Of a stretch of DNA of 5,976 nt, positions 1 to 5,976 are shown one piece after another. Location of the stretch: assembly GCA_944358685.1 (NCBI GenBank), contig CALVRQ010000077.1, forward strand, positions 1 to 5,976, read 5' to 3'. A program made the position numbers and the translations under genes. This DNA is from an uncultured Bacilli bacterium (GTDB taxonomy: Bacteria; Bacillota_I; Bacilli_A; RF39; UBA660). The notes beneath the pieces were generated by a model. That model saw only the letters and a list, made by a program, of their open reading frames with translations, ran no database searches and was not told the origin of the DNA. Each line of letters begins with the position of its first letter. The first letter of the stretch is position 1.

Positions 1-11
1 AATAAATTGGG

Positions 12-51
12 TTTACATTTTCTTTTAAGTAAGGTAAAATTATAGTATAAT
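12..51 (+). promoter_or_regulatory. Probable sigma-A-type promoter of the ftsA-ftsZ operon
   Basis: TTTACA at 12-17 and TAAAAT at 35-40 are separated by 17 bases, close to the housekeeping consensus TTGACA-N17-TATAAT. A perfect TATAAT also lies at 46-51, but it has no good -35 at the right distance, so either hexamer could serve as the -10. The site lies 30-40 bases ahead of the ftsA ribosome binding site. Upstream genes may also read through from outside the window, since ftsA often sits inside the larger dcw cluster. Confidence 0.5.
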
Positions 52-79
52 TAATGATAGACCGTAGGAGGATGATGTT

Positions 80-1309
80 ATGGAGCACGTTTATGCGAGT
101 ATTGATCTCGGCAGCGATTCCATTAAACTTGCTGTATGTGAATTATATAAAAATCATTTGAATTTACTTGCAGCTACAACTATACCTTCTCGGGGAATAA
201 AAAAGGGGCTAATAATTGACCCAGAGTTAGCTAAGAAGTCAATTTTACTTGCTTTTAGGTCTATTGAAGATATGCTTGGGATTAAGATTAAAAAAGTTAT
301 TGCGAATGTGCCAAACCACATGGCTGAGTATAAGTTAATTAGAGGTGAATGTGATATTCCTGGTGATTTAATTACATCTAAAGATATGATTAATTCCTAT
401 AAGGCTGGAATTAAGGGAAATTTGATGCCTAACGAAGAATTTGTAACTGTTGTTCCAATTGATTTTAAAATTAATGGGAAGACGGTTATGAAAGATCCTA
501 AGGGTTTTCCTGGTCAGAAATTAATGGGTAGAGCCATGATGGTTACGACCCCTAAAAAAAATGTATATTCAGTTGTAAGTATAATTGAAAGTTTAGGAAT
601 TGAAATTGTCGATATTTCGGTTGAAAGTATTGGCGATATGAATTGCTTTAGAACGGAAACATTAGACAAAAGTATTAGTGCAATTATAAATGTTGGTGCG
701 GATATTACAACAGTATCTTTGTATAATAAAAGTATTCCAGTTATTACTAAAATAATTGGGGCTGGAGGAAATGATATAGACCGTGATTTGGCATCTATGT
801 ATAAGATAGACTTAAAGGATGCTAGAAAAATTAAAGAAAAGTTTGCTTTGGCTCACGTTAGGAATGCTAGTGTTCATGATATTTATGAAACGGTTAATAT
901 AGATAATGTTAGAATTAAAATTAATCAAAAAGCAGCTTCTGAAGTAGTAATGAGCCGAATTAGCGAGATACTTACTTTGGCAAAAAATGAGTTAAAGGAC
1001 TTAACAAATAAGCCAATTCAGTATATAATAATAACTGGTGGCACTAGCAATATGCTAGATTTTGAATATGTTTTGCACGATGTTTTGCCAGTAGCTAGTA
1101 AAGGGGCAGTTAAATTAATAGGAGTTAGAAATAATAAATATAGTACAGTTATTGGGAATATTATTTATTTTCTAAATACTTTAAAATTAAAAGGAATGGA
1201 TTATTCAATGCTTAGTGAAGATGATATGGATGAACTTTCTTCACCTAGAGAAAATTCTAACGATGATACAATGCTGGGAAAAGTATTTGGATACTTTTTT
1301 GGCGAATAG
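80..1309 (+). CDS. ftsA: Cell division protein FtsA
   Basis: This is an actin-like ATPase that anchors the FtsZ ring to the inner face of the membrane and helps recruit later divisome proteins. The 409-residue length is normal for FtsA. The phosphate-1 motif lies near residues 5-19 (YASIDLGSDSIKLAV). The FtsA-specific 1C subdomain occupies about 83-160. The second phosphate loop is at about 202-215 (IINVGADITTVSLY), and the adenosine-binding loop at about 316-325 (IIITGGTSNM). The last 11 residues (LGKVFGYFFGE) form a short amphipathic helix of the type that binds the membrane, after an acidic, poorly conserved linker at about 378-397. The ATG at 80 is chosen because TAGGAGG lies at 65-71, 8 bases upstream; the ATGs at 72 and 75 are in another frame. 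ftsZ begins 12 bases after the stop, and the ftsA stop codon is part of the ftsZ Shine-Dalgarno, so the two are co-transcribed and probably translationally coupled. Confidence 0.97.
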   Translation: MEHVYASIDLGSDSIKLAVCELYKNHLNLLAATTIPSRGIKKGLIIDPELAKKSILLAFRSIEDMLGIKIKKVIANVPNHMAEYKLIRGECDIPGDLITSKDMINSYKAGIKGNLMPNEEFVTVVPIDFKINGKTVMKDPKGFPGQKLMGRAMMVTTPKKNVYSVVSIIESLGIEIVDISVESIGDMNCFRTETLDKSISAIINVGADITTVSLYNKSIPVITKIIGAGGNDIDRDLASMYKIDLKDARKIKEKFALAHVRNASVHDIYETVNIDNVRIKINQKAASEVVMSRISEILTLAKNELKDLTNKPIQYIIITGGTSNMLDFEYVLHDVLPVASKGAVKLIGVRNNKYSTVIGNIIYFLNTLKLKGMDYSMLSEDDMDELSSPRENSNDDTMLGKVFGYFFGE

Positions 1310-1321
1310 GAGGAAATTAAT

Positions 1322-2362
1322 ATGATGGGAATTGAAATGGATCAACTTGCAAAAATAAAAGTAATAGGAGTCGGGGGCGGCGGCTGTAATGCGGTAAATA
1401 GAATGACGGAATCGGTAGAAGGGGTAGAATTTATTGTAGCAAATACAGATTCTCAGGTTCTTAATAATTCTTTAGCGGAAAATAAAATTCAAATAGGAGT
1501 AGAGCTTACCCATGGACTTGGGGCCGGTGCTAATCCACAAATTGGTAAAGAGGCTGCACTTGAATCTAAAACTGAATTAGAAGAAGCTTTAAAAGGCGCT
1601 GATATGGTATTTATCACTTGTGGAATGGGTGGTGGTACTGGTACTGGTGCGGCACCGGTTATTGCTGATATTGCCCAAAATTCAGGTGCTTTAACTATTG
1701 GTATTGTTACTAAACCATTTTCTTTTGAAGGTAAGAAGAGAATGGAGCAAGCTTTAGCTGGAATTGAAGAGCTTAAGAAACATGTCGATACTTTAATTGT
1801 CGTTCCAAATGATAGATTAAGAGAGATTATTGATAAATCTACACCGCTTTTAGATTCATTTAAAGAGGTTGATAATGTACTTCGCCGTGGCGTTCAATCT
1901 ATTTCTGATTTGATTGCATGTCCAGGATTAATTAATTTGGATTTTGCTGATGTTAAAACAGTAATGGAAAAACGTGGTAATGCACTTATTGGTATTGGTG
2001 CAGGAGTTGGAGAAGATAGAGCTGTAGAGGCTGCAAATCAGGCTGTTCTTAGTCCGCTTTTAGAGACTAGTATTGATGGAGCTACAGATGCGATTATCAA
2101 TGTTACTGGTGGACCTAATTTAACTTTATTTGAAGTTGAAGAGGCAGTTGAGGCTATTAGGAAGTCTGCTAATACTGATATTAATACTATATTTGGTGCG
2201 GTTATTAATGAAAACTTTACTGATGAACTTATTGTAACAGTTATTGCAACTGGTTTTGATCAAAATAAGGAAAAAGAAGAAGATGATATGATTCCTATTG
2301 CCGGATTAGATGATGAAGATACTGTAATACCAGCATTCCTTAGAAAAAGAGGAAATTATTAA
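1322..2362 (+). CDS. ftsZ: Cell division protein FtsZ
   Basis: This tubulin-like GTPase polymerises into the cytokinetic ring at mid-cell. The nucleotide-binding N-terminus starts [17 protein letters not shown] (residues 12-28). The tubulin signature GGGTGTGA is at 103-110. The T7 synergy loop [11 protein letters not shown] is at about 205-215, with the catalytic acidic residues D207 and D210 both present. The C-terminal domain ends near 311. A short acidic linker of roughly 20-25 residues follows, then the conserved C-terminal peptide (VIPAFLRKR, about 335-343) that docks onto FtsA. At 346 residues the protein is slightly short for the family because the linker is short. AGGAGG at 1308-1313 is 8 bases from the ATG at 1322; the next codon is also ATG (1325) and is a less well spaced alternative start. 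All key residues are intact, so it should be an active essential protein. A terminator follows about 30 bases after the stop. Confidence 0.98.
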
Positions 2363-2391
2363 TAGATAAACTTATTGTAAAGTGAAAATTG

Positions 2392-2441
2392 AAACAAGTG
2401 ATTTATCGAAAATATTACTTGTTTTTTTTTTTTTTTTTTTT
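2392..2441 (+). terminator. Intrinsic terminator of the ftsA-ftsZ operon with a 20-T tract
   Basis: The arms AAACAAGTGAT (2392-2402) and ATTACTTGTTT (2414-2424) form an 11-bp stem with one G-U pair and an 11-base loop. The 3' side runs into 20 consecutive T at 2422-2441. The stem is AT-rich, but the T tract is exceptionally long, much longer than the usual 5-9. Its position just after ftsZ fits the operon end. The tract may have a second role in the promoter of the next gene. Confidence 0.85.
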
Positions 2442-2446
2442 ATATT
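2419..2446 (+). promoter_or_regulatory. Candidate promoter with poly-T spacer upstream of the surface-protein gene
   Basis: TTGTTT (2419-2424) and TATATT (2441-2446) are 16 bases apart and resemble -35 and -10 hexamers. The spacer between them consists entirely of T. Transcription would begin near 2453 and leave a short leader of about 24 bases containing AGGAG at 2464-2468. No better promoter is visible between the ftsZ stop and the gene at 2477. The -35 overlaps the terminator stem, so this is a tentative call based only on hexamer similarity and position. Confidence 0.35.
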
Positions 2447-2476
2447 TTGGATATTGATAAGATAGGAGAGGTATTC

Positions 2477-3769
2477 ATGAAAGAAAAAATAAAGAAAATA
2501 GTGTTAGGATATTTGCCAGGATTTGTAACAGGATTAATTGTATGTGGAGGAGTAAGTGTAATAGCTGCAACGTATTTTCCAAGTAATCAAGTGACGTATG
2601 AAAATACGGCGAGTGGAATGCAGGCGAGTGATGTTCAAGGAGCAATAGATGAGCTTTATGCAGAATGTACAAAAGAACCTACTACTGGTGATTCAATATT
2701 AGATAATACTGATATAGTAACATCAGGAGATGGACTTTACGCTGATGAGTATGAAGAAGGAAAATATACATATAAAGGAGCTAATCCGAATAATTATGTA
2801 ACATTTAATAATGAAACAGCAGGTTGGAGAATTATTTCTATAAATTCAGATGGAACGATAAAGATAATGAGGGATGCTAATATAAATACATCTAATAATT
2901 TAGTATGGGATAGGTCAAATTCAAATAATTGGAATCGCCCAGCAGATTTGAATACTTATTTAAACAACACATATTATAATGGACTTAATTCTACTGCCCA
3001 AAGTCAAATAGTAGAAGCAACGTATTATGCAGGTGCAGTAACTGCAAATAATAATGATATGCAAGATCAAATAAGTGATGAAAAAGTAACGACATCAAAA
3101 GTAAAAGTAGCCTTACCAACATTAAGTGAATATTTAAGAGCCAATTCAAATAAAGAACAGTGTGGAACATATAGTTTAAATAAGGAAAATTATAGTACCT
3201 GTAAAAATTCAGATTGGATGGTTAATAGTGATGCTTGGTGGACCTTGTCGCCTTATTCTGACAATTCTAGCGTGTTCAATGTGTACGTCTATGGTGATGT
3301 GTTCGCCCGCAACGTAGACAATACGGGCACTGCGGTCAGGCCTGCCATAACTCTTTCTTCTAAAGTCCAAATTACTGGAGGAGATGGTAGTCAGTCAAAT
3401 CCATATACATTAAGTATGGGTGGAACTTCTACATCAACCCTAGAAAAACCAACCTTCACAGAAGAAGGAGTATATCCCAAAACAGTAACTATTACATTCC
3501 CAGATGGTTGTGGTGACACCCTAACATGTTCATATCAAAAAGATAATGGTGCAAGCGTAAATGTAACAACAAAAACAGTCGATGTTGAATTTGATAATCA
3601 TGGAAGTGTAGCCGCTACTGCTACTGATGGTACTAATACAGTAAATAGTTCACTTACAGTAATTATTAAATTAAAAGCAGCTGAATTATCTTATGCAAAT
3701 ACAAATACTGGACTAGATTGTACAGATGTTCAATGTGCACTAGATGCTATAAAGAAAATGTTAGAATAA
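2477..3769 (+). CDS. Membrane-anchored surface protein, C-type-lectin-like (DUF6273-like) core with probable DGR variable region, Ig-like domain
   Basis: The protein has 430 residues. The N-terminus is basic (MKEKIKK), followed by a hydrophobic segment at about 8-32 that acts as a signal anchor or signal peptide; an AA-TYF junction near 31 could be a cleavage site. Residues 39-64 carry a short module of the pattern YxNTxxGMxxxDVQxAIDEL. The core, about 86-312, contains WRIISI, RPADLNTYLN, LPTLSEYLRANS and WWTLSPY, and ends VRPAITL; I recognise this style from DUF6273-like/FISUMP-like proteins of uncultured Firmicutes, which resemble the C-type lectin folds used by DGR targets. C229 and C242 could form a disulfide. 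Residues 254-290 are the probable variable region. An Ig-like domain (324-397, Cys 345/351) and a tail with Cys 415/420 follow, both related to the prepilin encoded downstream. The ATG at 2477 is preferred because AGGAG lies 8 bases upstream; the in-frame TTG at 2447 has no ribosome binding site. The likely role is extracellular binding; the ligand is unknown. Confidence 0.85.
   Translation: MKEKIKKIVLGYLPGFVTGLIVCGGVSVIAATYFPSNQVTYENTASGMQASDVQGAIDELYAECTKEPTTGDSILDNTDIVTSGDGLYADEYEEGKYTYKGANPNNYVTFNNETAGWRIISINSDGTIKIMRDANINTSNNLVWDRSNSNNWNRPADLNTYLNNTYYNGLNSTAQSQIVEATYYAGAVTANNNDMQDQISDEKVTTSKVKVALPTLSEYLRANSNKEQCGTYSLNKENYSTCKNSDWMVNSDAWWTLSPYSDNSSVFNVYVYGDVFARNVDNTGTAVRPAITLSSKVQITGGDGSQSNPYTLSMGGTSTSTLEKPTFTEEGVYPKTVTITFPDGCGDTLTCSYQKDNGASVNVTTKTVDVEFDNHGSVAATATDGTNTVNSSLTVIIKLKAAELSYANTNTGLDCTDVQCALDAIKKMLE
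2591..2668 (+). repeat. N-terminal copy of short YxNTxxG/DVQxAID module
   Basis: It encodes residues 39-64 of the surface protein, directly after the membrane segment. The recognisable core is YENTASGM followed by SDVQGAIDELYAEC. It matches the C-terminal tails of the same protein (3683-3766) and of the prepilin (5596-5691) at the positions Y-x-N-T/S, G-L/M and D-V/A-Q-x-A-I/L-D. Similar sequences with a VQxAIDEL ending occur in many Firmicutes surface proteins and phage tail proteins. Its function is not known to me. Confidence 0.6.
3236..3346 (+). other. Probable diversity-generating retroelement variable region (VR)
   Basis: It encodes residues 254-290 (W254, W255 to A290) at the end of the lectin-like core. 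The stretch 3242-3346 has 55 G/C of 105 bases (52%), while the flanks are strongly AT-rich. Of its 35 codons 14 end in C, including TTC, GCC, CGC, GTC, GGC and GAC, whereas neighbours prefer A or T. The codons at 3260, 3269, 3284, 3287, 3302, 3305, 3308, 3317 and 3326 are all NNC, and those at 3290 and 3296 are NNT. Each can be derived from AAC or AAT by changing adenines only, and AAC remains unchanged at 3311. The constant frame (TLSPYS, FNV, NV, NT, VRPA) is what DGR targets keep. The GC-rich 3' end at 3335-3346, containing the palindrome CAGGCCTG, is where an initiation-of-mutagenic-homing site would be expected. The template is inferred; it is not in the window. Confidence 0.75.
3446..3667 (+). 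repeat. Ig-like module shared with the downstream prepilin
   Basis: It encodes residues 324-397, beginning KPTFTEEGVYPKTVTITFPDG with the Cys pair C345/C351 and ending near SSLTVII. Three related copies lie in the prepilin at 4393-4614, 4879-5103 and 5365-5589. All share PxF, a PxxVTI/VxYP strand, GCG-x(4)-C-x-Y, a KxDxG turn, V-x-F and a DGxN-x(2,5)-T/S ending. The copy follows the variable lectin-like core, so it probably serves as a stalk or a docking domain. Confidence 0.8.
3683..3766 (+). repeat. C-terminal Cys-containing tail module (copy in surface protein)
   Basis: It encodes residues 403-430: ELSYANTNTGLDCTDVQC followed by ALDAIKKMLE. It closely matches the prepilin C-terminus (5596-5691), including both cysteines of the GLDC-x(4)-C spacing. 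The N-terminal copy at 2591-2668 lacks these two cysteines. A conserved extreme C-terminus on two otherwise different exported proteins suggests a common sorting, anchoring or partner-binding role, but no known sorting motif such as LPxTG is present. Confidence 0.65.
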
Positions 3770-3796
3770 AGACCTCGTTTAACGAGGTTTTTCTTT
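3768..3796 (+). terminator. Intrinsic terminator after the variable surface-protein gene
   Basis: A perfect 7-bp stem, ACCTCGT (3772-3778) with ACGAGGT (3782-3788), is closed by a TTA loop. It can be extended outward by one G-U and three A-T pairs. TTTTT at 3788-3792 then C and TTT follow. The hairpin starts right at the stop codon and would separate this gene's transcript from the prepilin gene. Confidence 0.9.
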
Positions 3797-3846
3797 ACAA
3801 ATTCATCATCATATCAAAATTTTTAATGTTATATCATCTAAAAATA

Positions 3847-3867
3847 TGATATACTATAAATATAGTA
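3847..3867 (+). promoter_or_regulatory. Candidate extended -10 promoter with overlapping inverted repeat, upstream of prepilin gene
   Basis: TGATATACT (3847-3855) has the extended -10 form TG-N-TATACT. The position 17 bases upstream has only a weak -35 (TGTTAT, 3827-3832). The arms TACTATA (3852-3858) and TATAGTA (3861-3867) form a 7-bp inverted repeat with a 2-base gap that overlaps the -10, as an operator might. Transcription from here would leave a leader of about 60 bases. TATAAA at 3900-3905 is another -10-like hexamer but lies very near the start codon. The local AT-richness makes chance matches likely. Confidence 0.35.
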
Positions 3868-3924
3868 GAAAGCATACATAAACACAAATGACGACTTTGT
3901 ATAAAACACTATGGGGTGAACAAT

Positions 3925-5694
3925 ATGAAGAATAAAGGATTTACCGTTGTTGAGCTAATAGTCTCGTTTGCTTTAACAATGATAATTGCAGTTTTCTTAT
4001 TTGAAGTATTGATTGAAGTAAAAGATATATTTACTGATGCAAGTACTAGAACAGCTATTCAAGAAAAAGCTAGTATTATCTCTAAAAACATCAGTAGTAT
4101 TTTATCATCAGGTGAAAATCACATTACTTGTAATAATTCAACCAATTTAGGAAATTGTCAAATAAATGGTAAAAATTTTAGAATCAATAAAGATAGTAAT
4201 ATAATAGTAATTGATGGGCAAAACTTTGATTTACCAGAAACTGTAAGTATAAAAAATTACAGTATTCAAAATGCTTGTGAAGAAAACAATTGTTACTTAA
4301 ATGTTAAAATGGTTCTAGATAGTGCTAATCTAACTAAAGAATATAATTATGACGTTACATATTATTTCACGGCTGACCCAGTAGCAATACCAGGACCTAC
4401 TTTTTCAGAAAGAGGAACAAATCCAAAAATAGTAACTGTTACATATCCAGATGGTTGTGGTGATAGATATACATGTACATATAAAAAAGACGATGGTAAA
4501 TTAGTCAATGTAGCTCAAAAAACAGTCGATGTTGAATTTACTAATAGTGGTGATATCACTGCCTCTGTCTCTGATGGTAAAAATTCAACTAACAATAGTT
4601 ACCATGTTGAAGTAGCTAAACCAATTAATTTAACTATATCAACAACCAATACAACAAATAGTATTACTGTAACTGCTAATGCCTCATCAGAAAGCCCTGT
4701 CAATAAATATGAATATTCTATAGATGATGGTAAAAATTGGACTAATGCGGGTCCTAGTAATATTTATACGTTTACAAAATTAACACAAGGAACAGAATAC
4801 AAAGTATCTGTAAGAGCAACTAATGATAGTGGCGCAATTGCAACTGCCAGTAAAACATTAACTACTTCAGTTATTCCAAAACCAACATTCAGTGAAAGTG
4901 GAGTAGTTCCGAAAACAGTTACCATATATTATCCAGAAGGCTGTGGTGATATATATACATGTACTTATCAAAAAGATAATGGAACCTCAGTTCCTGTTAC
5001 TAGCCAAGTAGCAGACGTTGAATTTACAAAATCTGGAACACTAGTTGCCACTGTTTCAGATGGTACTAATGAATCAAATGAAACTTATAATGTCACAGTA
5101 ACTGAAGATACATTATCTGTATCTCTAACTACAACTAATACAACAAATAGTATTACCGCTGTCGCCAATGCAACTTCAGTAAGTAAAATAACTAAATATG
5201 AATTTTCTGTAGATGGTGGCAAAAATTGGGTTACTTCTGGAACAAATATCTATAGATTTGAAGGATTAAAACAGGGTACTGAATATAGTGTCATGGCCAG
5301 AGTAACTAATGCTACTGGAAAAACTGCTACAGATACAAAAATAGTTGCCACTTCAGCTTTGACAGCTCCATCATTTAAAGAAACTGGAATATATCCAATA
5401 ACAGTCACTATTACATATCCAGAAGGTTGTGGTAGTTCTTATATTTGTGATTATAAAAAAGATGATGGGACTATAGTCACTGTTACCGATAGCACCGAAG
5501 AAGTACCATTCTATTACCATGGAAATATTGTGGCCTCTGTTTCAGATGGTACTAATACAATAAGTAATACATATACAGTTACAATTAAATTAAGAGCTAT
5601 AGATTTGACTTATGATAACTCTAAAACCGGCTTAGATTGTGAAGATGCACAGTGTGCAATAGATGCCATTGATGAAATGATTGATAAAGAGTAA
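3925..5694 (+). CDS. Type IV prepilin-like protein with Ig-Fn3-Ig-Fn3-Ig stalk
   Basis: The protein has 589 residues. It begins MKNKG|FTVVELIVSF: a 5-residue basic leader, the Gly-Phe prepilin peptidase site and Glu at position 5 of the mature protein, then a hydrophobic helix to about residue 30. This is the signature of type IV pilins and pseudopilins. Residues 31-150 form a pilin-like head with Cys pairs 69/78 and 118/123. Tandem modules follow: Ig-like 157-230, Fn3-like 233-316, Ig-like 319-393, Fn3-like 396-478 and Ig-like 481-555. Each Ig copy carries a close Cys pair (178/184, 340/346, 502/508). The tail 558-589 ends with the GLDC-x(4)-C module also found in the protein encoded at 2477-3769. 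At this length it is far larger than a major pilin (usually 130-200 residues), so a minor or tip pilin, or a pseudopilin-anchored adhesin, is more likely. The ATG at 3925 is chosen because GGGGTG (3913-3918) sits 6 bases before it; the GTG at 3916 is inside that site. No assembly ATPase, platform protein or peptidase gene is nearby. Confidence 0.88.
   Translation: MKNKGFTVVELIVSFALTMIIAVFLFEVLIEVKDIFTDASTRTAIQEKASIISKNISSILSSGENHITCNNSTNLGNCQINGKNFRINKDSNIIVIDGQNFDLPETVSIKNYSIQNACEENNCYLNVKMVLDSANLTKEYNYDVTYYFTADPVAIPGPTFSERGTNPKIVTVTYPDGCGDRYTCTYKKDDGKLVNVAQKTVDVEFTNSGDITASVSDGKNSTNNSYHVEVAKPINLTISTTNTTNSITVTANASSESPVNKYEYSIDDGKNWTNAGPSNIYTFTKLTQGTEYKVSVRATNDSGAIATASKTLTTSVIPKPTFSESGVVPKTVTIYYPEGCGDIYTCTYQKDNGTSVPVTSQVADVEFTKSGTLVATVSDGTNESNETYNVTVTEDTLSVSLTTTNTTNSITAVANATSVSKITKYEFSVDGGKNWVTSGTNIYRFEGLKQGTEYSVMARVTNATGKTATDTKIVATSALTAPSFKETGIYPITVTITYPEGCGSSYICDYKKDDGTIVTVTDSTEEVPFYYHGNIVASVSDGTNTISNTYTVTIKLRAIDLTYDNSKTGLDCEDAQCAIDAIDEMIDKE
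4393..4872 (+). repeat. First Ig-Fn3 unit of the prepilin
   Basis: It encodes residues 157-316. The Ig-like part (4393-4614) starts GPTFSERGTNPKIVTVTYPDG and contains GCGDRYTC. The Fn3-like part (4621-4872) has the features KYEYSIDDGKNW, QGTEYKVSVRATN and a final TLTTS. It is the first of two tandem units with a period of about 162 residues. The 20-base string at 4648-4667 recurs exactly at 5137-5156. Confidence 0.8.
4879..5358 (+). repeat. Second Ig-Fn3 unit of the prepilin
   Basis: It encodes residues 319-478. The Ig-like part (4879-5103) contains KPTFSESGVVPKTVTIYYP and GCGDIYTC. The Fn3-like part (5110-5358) contains KYEFSVDGGKNW and QGTEYSVMARVTN. It aligns throughout with the first unit at protein level, with more divergence at DNA level, so the duplication is not very recent even though short exact DNA repeats remain. 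Confidence 0.8.
5365..5691 (+). repeat. Third Ig-like module and C-terminal tail of the prepilin
   Basis: It encodes the Ig-like copy at residues 481-555 (5365-5589), with GCGSSYIC, and the tail at 558-589 (5596-5691). This Ig-plus-tail arrangement, joined by an IKLRAI/IKLKAA linker, is the same as the C-terminal end of the protein encoded at 2477-3769. The match there includes YHG/NHG before the last strands. The two C-termini therefore probably derive from one duplicated cassette. Confidence 0.75.
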
Positions 5695-5708
5695 ATAAAT
5701 TATACCTT

Positions 5709-5742
5709 AAAAGGTGTTGGTGATTTTTCGCCAGCACCTTTT
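5709..5742 (+). terminator. Intrinsic terminator after the prepilin gene
   Basis: A 14-bp stem pairs AAAAGGTGTTGGTG (5709-5722) with CGCCAGCACCTTTT (5729-5742), with two G-U pairs and a 6-base loop. The T run is short (TTTT, then AC and a T/A-rich stretch), and A's on the other arm mean it may act in both directions. It lies 14 bases after the stop codon. Confidence 0.85.
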
Positions 5743-5786
5743 ACTATATTTAAAATTTAAACTTTTTCTAAAATAAAAAAGGAAAT

Positions 5787-5815
5787 TTGATTTTTACATC
5801 GTATGTTTATATATG
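5787..5815 (+). promoter_or_regulatory. Candidate promoter for the right-edge gene
   Basis: TTGATT (5787-5792) and TATATG (5810-5815) are spaced by 17 bases, and a ribosome binding site and ATG follow. The terminator just upstream means that this gene needs its own promoter. The rest of the stretch between 5743 and the start codon is plain AT-rich sequence in which I see nothing else. Confidence 0.35.
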
Positions 5816-5837
5816 AAGGGGCAAAGAAAGGAGTTAT

Positions 5838-5976
5838 ATGAAAATAGAGCATTTAGAAAACCTAGACCAAACATTATCTTTGATTCCTTTAAGCTATGAT
5901 AGAGCTTTTAAAAGTGTGTTTAAAATAAATTTAGATATTTTAAAAGACTTTTTAAAAGTAATTATTCCTATCAATA
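5838..5976 (+). CDS. Probable PD-(D/E)XK nuclease / Rpn-family transposase-like protein, N-terminal part, cut by window edge
   Basis: Only 46 codons are visible. After a short lead-in they read LSLIPLSYDRAFKSVF, then KINLDILKDFLKVIIPI. The pattern 'YD-x-x-FK-x-x-F ... N-x-x-x-L-x-x-F-L' is typical of the N-terminus of Rpn-type (recombination-promoting nuclease) and related PD-(D/E)XK transposase-family proteins, which are common in gut Firmicutes. The catalytic residues would lie beyond the edge, so activity cannot be judged. AAAGGAG at 5827-5833 is 4 bases from the ATG at 5838, slightly tight but usable. It is on the same strand as the other genes but behind its own terminator and probable promoter. 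Confidence 0.55.
   Translation, partial: MKIEHLENLDQTLSLIPLSYDRAFKSVFKINLDILKDFLKVIIPIN

Follow-up and report, generated by a model that had tools for sequence, protein, structure and literature searches.

The window analysed here is a stretch of 5,976 nucleotides (nt) from an uncultured Bacilli bacterium of the UBA660 lineage (contig CALVRQ010000077.1, positions 1 to 5,976). It is chromosomal DNA, since ftsA and ftsZ, as recognized by Pfam, precede the gene of interest, a putative target of a diversity-generating retroelement (DGR) at 2477..3769 of the forward strand, on which all parts of this gene given below are read. Its 430-residue product clears the Pfam cut-off for DUF6273 (PF19789; 40.3 bits against 23.5, residues 130-294), and residues 64-313 (2666..3415) were modelled as a domain of the C-type-lectin type (predicted local distance difference test (pLDDT) 94.0; predicted template-modelling score 0.91), a type backed by fold matches. 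An AlphaFold model of the full-length product was of low quality, with a pLDDT of 36.6, and the fold search was made with the domain model. In DGRs, a reverse transcriptase (RT) working with the protein Avd copies a template repeat into a variable region, and the copy is mutated at template adenines. An original prediction, made from the letters of the window, placed such a region at 3236-3346, at the end of a C-type-lectin-like core, and DUF6273 and the modelled fold both back that core. We show herein that the stretch at 3244..3343, which sits within the modelled lectin-type fold and is homologous to a DGR template of a relative in the same genus (genome G003), is almost certainly of DGR origin. 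This conclusion follows from the codon signature, the modelled fold, the nearly adenine-only differences found in G003, the loci of the genus that combine an RT, Avd and a template, and the coincidence of hypervariable positions with AAY codons (Y denotes C or T) of the template.

The composition of the stretch is unusual. The G+C content is 53% in 3236-3346 and 32% over the remainder of the gene. The former value is the maximum of the window: among 5866 segments of 111 nt, it is attained only by the two that begin at 3236 and 3237. NNC codons make up 14 of the 37 codons for residues 254-290, whereas the other codons of the gene include 19 in 393 (Fisher p 2.6e-8), so that both the predicted coordinates and the predicted G+C-rich, NNC-rich character are borne out. 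Seventeen codons (residues 260-285; 3254..3331) are predicted to vary, and all of them end in C or T, versus 184 of 393 elsewhere (2.5e-6 by an estimate that treats the codons as independent draws). In the G003 template, the codons aligned to 16 of these (260, 263, 265, 268, 270-272, 274, 276-279, 281, 282, 284 and 285) are AAY, while the one aligned to 262 is AGT. The 11 variable codons originally named are each as described, but that list was incomplete; the template proposed with them, FNVNNNGNVNNNNVNNTN, agrees with that of G003, FNVNNNGNVNNNNANNTN, at 17 of 18 residues. The constant, G+C-rich 3' end of the region (3332..3346), which lies in the low-entropy columns 286-289, may be the place of the initiation of mutagenic homing sequence. 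A sharp rise in G+C could also mark an island from a foreign genome or a compositional accident. Such an origin has next to no probability, in that homologues hold the same stretch at the same place, AAC template codons with randomized adenines explain the G+C content, and homologous templates refute it.

The dependence on adenines could be examined directly in relatives, which are represented by draft metagenome-assembled genomes. Four lectin genes of G003, L210, L211, L212 and L213, located on four contigs other than that of the RT locus, differ from the template at 18, 17, 20 and 18 of 36 adenines and at 0, 0, 1 and 1 of 66 other positions, respectively. Taken together, 73 of the 75 mismatches in these four variable regions fall on template adenines, which is what had been predicted. 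A template and a variable region lying in cis in genome G001 (L263) gave a similar result, with mismatches at 17 of 35 adenines versus 2 of 75 other positions. Against the foreign G003 template, the window itself shows the same direction, with 18 of 34 adenines versus 12 of 66 other positions mismatched (p 4.5e-4), and it is one codon shorter owing to a deletion of 3 nt. The stretches compared cover 22 of the 46 DUF6273 matches in G003, 18 of 50 in G004 and 20 of 66 in G001, from among the matches listed, and most of the 63 sequences (from 60 sources) match no known template cleanly.

Variability among homologues leads to the same codons without recourse to a template. In an alignment of the 120 highest-ranking proteins among 1819 homologues, 16 of columns 256-289 have entropies of at least 2.4 bits, and the remaining 18 lie at or below 1.94 bits. 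All 16 high-entropy columns are those at which AAY codons of the G003 template align to the window, and the chance of drawing these 16 from 34 columns is about 1 in 2.2e9 if the columns are taken as exchangeable. The two intermediate columns, 262 and 283, correspond to AGT and ACG in the template. At the DNA level, as judged from the 23 of 104 distinct sequences with at least 60% identity, entropies at the first, second and third codon positions are 1.67, 1.51 and 0.92 in variable codons and 0.66, 0.46 and 1.09 in constant codons, a pattern that is the reverse of ordinary synonymous drift. Selection together with recombination among paralogues might generate hypervariability without any DGR, and the large paralogue family, as well as the variability of column 253 (3.05 bits), which is outside the stretch, would suit this explanation. 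It is nonetheless very unlikely, given that the variation affects the first and second positions of AAY codons and spares the third, and that relatives possess a template and an RT together with the adenine mismatches described above.

Both the template and the DGR-type RT that had been anticipated exist in genomes of the same genus; neither lies inside the 6 kb window. The RT locus of G003 (L055) contains the template (6169-6271), an open reading frame (ORF) resembling MutS_I (6563-6973), Avd (6967-7317; Pfam bAvd 1.3e-11; PHROGs 'Avd protein of DGR') and the RT (7292-8452), which carries IGNMTSQ and YMDD motifs that we take to be marks of a DGR RT. The best solved relative of the RT is 8ub7 (4.1e-34), presumably the RT of BPP-1, and no solved homologue of Avd was found by sequence. 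In NCBIfam, the Avd model scored 50.1 of 80 bits on the G003 Avd, under its cut-off, and the RT matched solely group II intron, Drt and retron models, all under their cut-offs. MutS-like accessory ORFs occur in DGRs. The term MutS was found neither in two papers on DGRs in which it was looked for nor in the available portion of a metagenome survey of DGRs (PMC8144416). No target match is listed within the 16 kb of L055, so that L210-L213, provided that the contigs are correctly assembled, would be served in trans. An ORF at 5639-6301 of the same locus resembles by eye the N-terminus of TnpB and runs in frame into the template, an arrangement that looks as though a former target gene had given way to a transposon gene.

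PF00078 matches were present in 10 of 13 genomes holding relatives of the lectin gene. At E<=0.001, the RT query found matches in 34 of the genus's 44 genomes, a number of them weak or in broken frames. The template DNA query matched 21 of the 44, its matches including variable regions. Over the 193 genomes of the family, the RT query matched 98, many of them weakly, and no prevalence of DGRs is drawn from this figure. The window protein, for its part, found matches in 161 of the 193. A search for a template of the window's own lineage yielded 10 matches in 8 of the 44 genomes, with G002, G004 and G005 giving none; of these matches, two or three may be variable regions instead of templates.

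Our preferred reading, to which we assign a probability of roughly 0.75, is that 3244-3343 is a DGR variable region now served in trans by a template and an RT elsewhere in the window's genome. By analogy with its kin, that genome would contain a template and an RT that are still active and act in trans on the gene beside ftsZ. The RT, together with Avd, would copy a template RNA made up mostly of AAC and AAT codons, random bases would be placed opposite the template adenines, and the mutated cDNA would take the place of 3244-3343. As many as 17 residues of the C-type-lectin-type domain would thereby change while the scaffold holds, and NNY codons would avoid stops.

Several observations weigh against trans service by an active DGR. 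No RT is present among the ORFs of at least 60 residues in the window, and no second copy of the variable stretch, which could be its template, is among the repeats listed for 2400-5976; thus the gene, if diversified now, must be served from elsewhere. The nearest genome, G004, whose ftsA-ftsZ DNA is 93% identical to that of the window over a partial match (87% in G005 and G001; the query matches all 44 genomes of the genus), yielded no template in the template DNA searches, and its RT is truncated and of another type. No stem-loop (stem of at least 6, loop of 3-6) was found in window positions 3320-3480. To these must be added column 253, mentioned above, and the 12 of 66 non-adenine mismatches, three of which (template positions 22, 55 and 76) recur solely in strongly diverged variable regions.

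Part of this evidence would also suit a fossil, that is, a variable region that a DGR made in an ancestor, or in a paralogue from which it was copied to this gene, and that has since been inherited and is slowly decaying after the template or RT was lost or the gene moved out of reach. The clean regions of G003 have only 0-1 of 66 non-adenine mismatches, and the codon deletion, the lack of a hairpin, the failure of G004 to yield a template and the many diverged, variable-region-like paralogues in relatives all point the same way. On the other hand, the reading frame and scaffold of the window gene are intact, and all 12 non-adenine differences recur in other variable regions of the genus, nine of them in closer ones, as a diverged lineage template predicts. 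The differences fit such a template, although an ageing region would be expected to show some as well. We therefore regard a fossil as unlikely, though it is the most serious competitor of trans service by an active DGR.

The setting in which such service would operate can be seen in the relatives. Genomes G001-G005, of 1.1-1.4 Mb each, contain 66, 41, 46, 50 and 50 DUF6273 matches, respectively; these are matches rather than genes, split genes being counted twice, and they represent a very large lectin-like family for such small genomes. A hairpin motif occurs behind DUF6273 genes at eight places in three of the 44 genomes; in G003 the stem-loop has an 8-bp stem and a GATA loop and lies some 100 nt past the variable region. 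According to the available text of PMC3240598, such a hairpin has a GRNA loop 4-34 bp behind the variable region and is needed for efficient homing in BPP-1, and PMC3521204 describes it as a feature of 'a subset of DGRs' and hence no universal requirement. Loops of TATA and GTTA at other places do not fit the GRNA rule.

These eight places differ in what accompanies the hairpin. One in G001 (C2) is a complete DGR, and two in G003 (C1 and C4; L212 and L213) have intact template copies with a hairpin and leader and no RT beside them. The two intact copies are identical over 167 + 103 + 63 bases and differ beyond these in either direction, which looks like recombination through template and variable-region homology that placed a hairpin and template behind another target, unless an assembly error at repeats accounts for it. 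At a place in G005 (C31; L179), again with a hairpin and leader and lacking an RT, the copy is template at its beginning and variable region at its end, where a second lectin tail is attached; at two others (G005 C6 and C15), no template was found within the 700 bases examined. The remaining places (G001 C18 and G005 C11) hold template copies cut by the same palindrome. This palindrome, TATTAGACATGTCTAATA, interrupts the orphan template at the same point in the two genomes (L006 1032-1049 and L177 82-99), and in G001 it is followed in L006 by two ORFs that resemble tyrosine recombinases by eye. A tentative model, which we consider possible though not probable, is that in this genus a DGR has come to work in trans on a lectin superfamily spread over the whole genome, in which template cassettes (hairpins, leader and template) are copied behind targets by recombination through template and variable-region homology. 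Each recipient would thereby acquire a hairpin and an extra template but no RT, and the window gene would be one such trans target.

The N-terminus of the window protein (2477..2572) is hydrophobic, probably a membrane anchor or signal as judged from the translation, and the C-terminal extension (3416..3766) carries a weak Rib-like match (PF08428, 16.9 bits, under the 27-bit cut-off) and a TGLDCTDVQCALDAI motif; both ends suggest a surface-displayed binder. Columns 315-317, in this extension, have residues in just 2-3 of the 120 aligned rows, including the window. A possible alternative start, TTG, lies at 2447. No solved homologue of the domain was found by sequence (among four chains with E of 1 or less, the lowest value was 0.14), NCBIfam returned nothing for the protein, and its PHROGs match, phrog_9958, is of unknown function. 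The next gene, 3916-5694, encodes a prepilin-like N-terminus (N_methyl just under the cut-off) and fn3, and contains repeats of a 193-nt unit that also occurs in the lectin gene, in the part for the C-terminal extension. A motif of the DVQ.AIDEL type is found at both termini of the lectin protein (2630-2660 and 3725-3755) and again at the C-terminal end of the protein encoded by the following gene (5644-5674).

Two further ideas were rejected. As to a phage origin, a tblastn search of 50,697 phage records found nothing, and of 21 viral-contig stretches that matched a pattern none encodes a relative; seven viral contigs contain distant RTs (32-36% identity). With ftsA-ftsZ adjoining, the gene does not lie in a phage genome, as that of a phage receptor-binding protein would. 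A conserved location beside ftsZ was likewise discarded: among 20 loci, two of them cut short, only those of G010 and G218 show DUF6273 within ~1.5 kb behind ftsZ.

A DGR-diversified lectin gene is of a kind already known. Among the papers listed on DGRs, none dealt with this lineage, which is weak evidence of absence. The modelled domain shares 12% identity with Treponema denticola variable protein 1 (2y3c), and a Z score this low alone proves little. As in the DGR of the Bordetella phage BPP-1 (PMC3240598), the relatives possess an RT, Avd and an adenine-rich template, and the hairpin behind the target has an 8-bp stem and a 4-nt loop, GATA in G003 fitting GRNA. Unlike BPP-1, they have the extra MutS_I-like ORF, the TATA and GTTA loops and, in G003, a hairpin far beyond the published 4-34 bp, and the window has no hairpin at all. 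DUF6273 has itself been published as a DGR target of gut phages (PMC11792537; PMC10743442, 'tentaclins'). The window gene resembles those targets, so far as the available text describes them, in its DUF6273 domain, a variable region where that domain ends on the C-terminal side and a lectin-like modelled fold, and DUF6273 phage proteins do match the window domain by fold. It differs from them in being chromosomal, beside ftsZ, and in having no relative by sequence among the phage records and viral contigs searched.

Multiple and remote variable regions have also been published (PMC3521204, PMC6642488, PMC7517822, PMC10907252), and the metagenome survey notes that it would miss remote targets (PMC8144416), which is the situation seen in these relatives. 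Close parallels are the remote (trans) variable proteins of cyanobacterial DGRs (PMC7517822) and the trans and incomplete loci of Thiohalocapsa PB-PSB1 (PMC10907252), in which, according to the parts available, C-type-lectin proteins lie away from the RT, templates match remote regions at non-adenine sites, and degraded loci occur. The Bacilli relatives differ in their 1.1-1.4 Mb genomes with 41-66 DUF6273 matches and in their intact template copies, without an RT, behind lectin genes. The present case puts a lectin diversified by a DGR on a chromosome from an uncultured lineage of Bacilli whose relatives combine small genomes with a very large lectin family, and this combination, together with the RT-less template cassettes, would be the new part, if confirmed. 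Should one template and RT locus serve many remote lectins, the genus would offer a natural setting for DGR trans targeting, target recruitment and ligand range.
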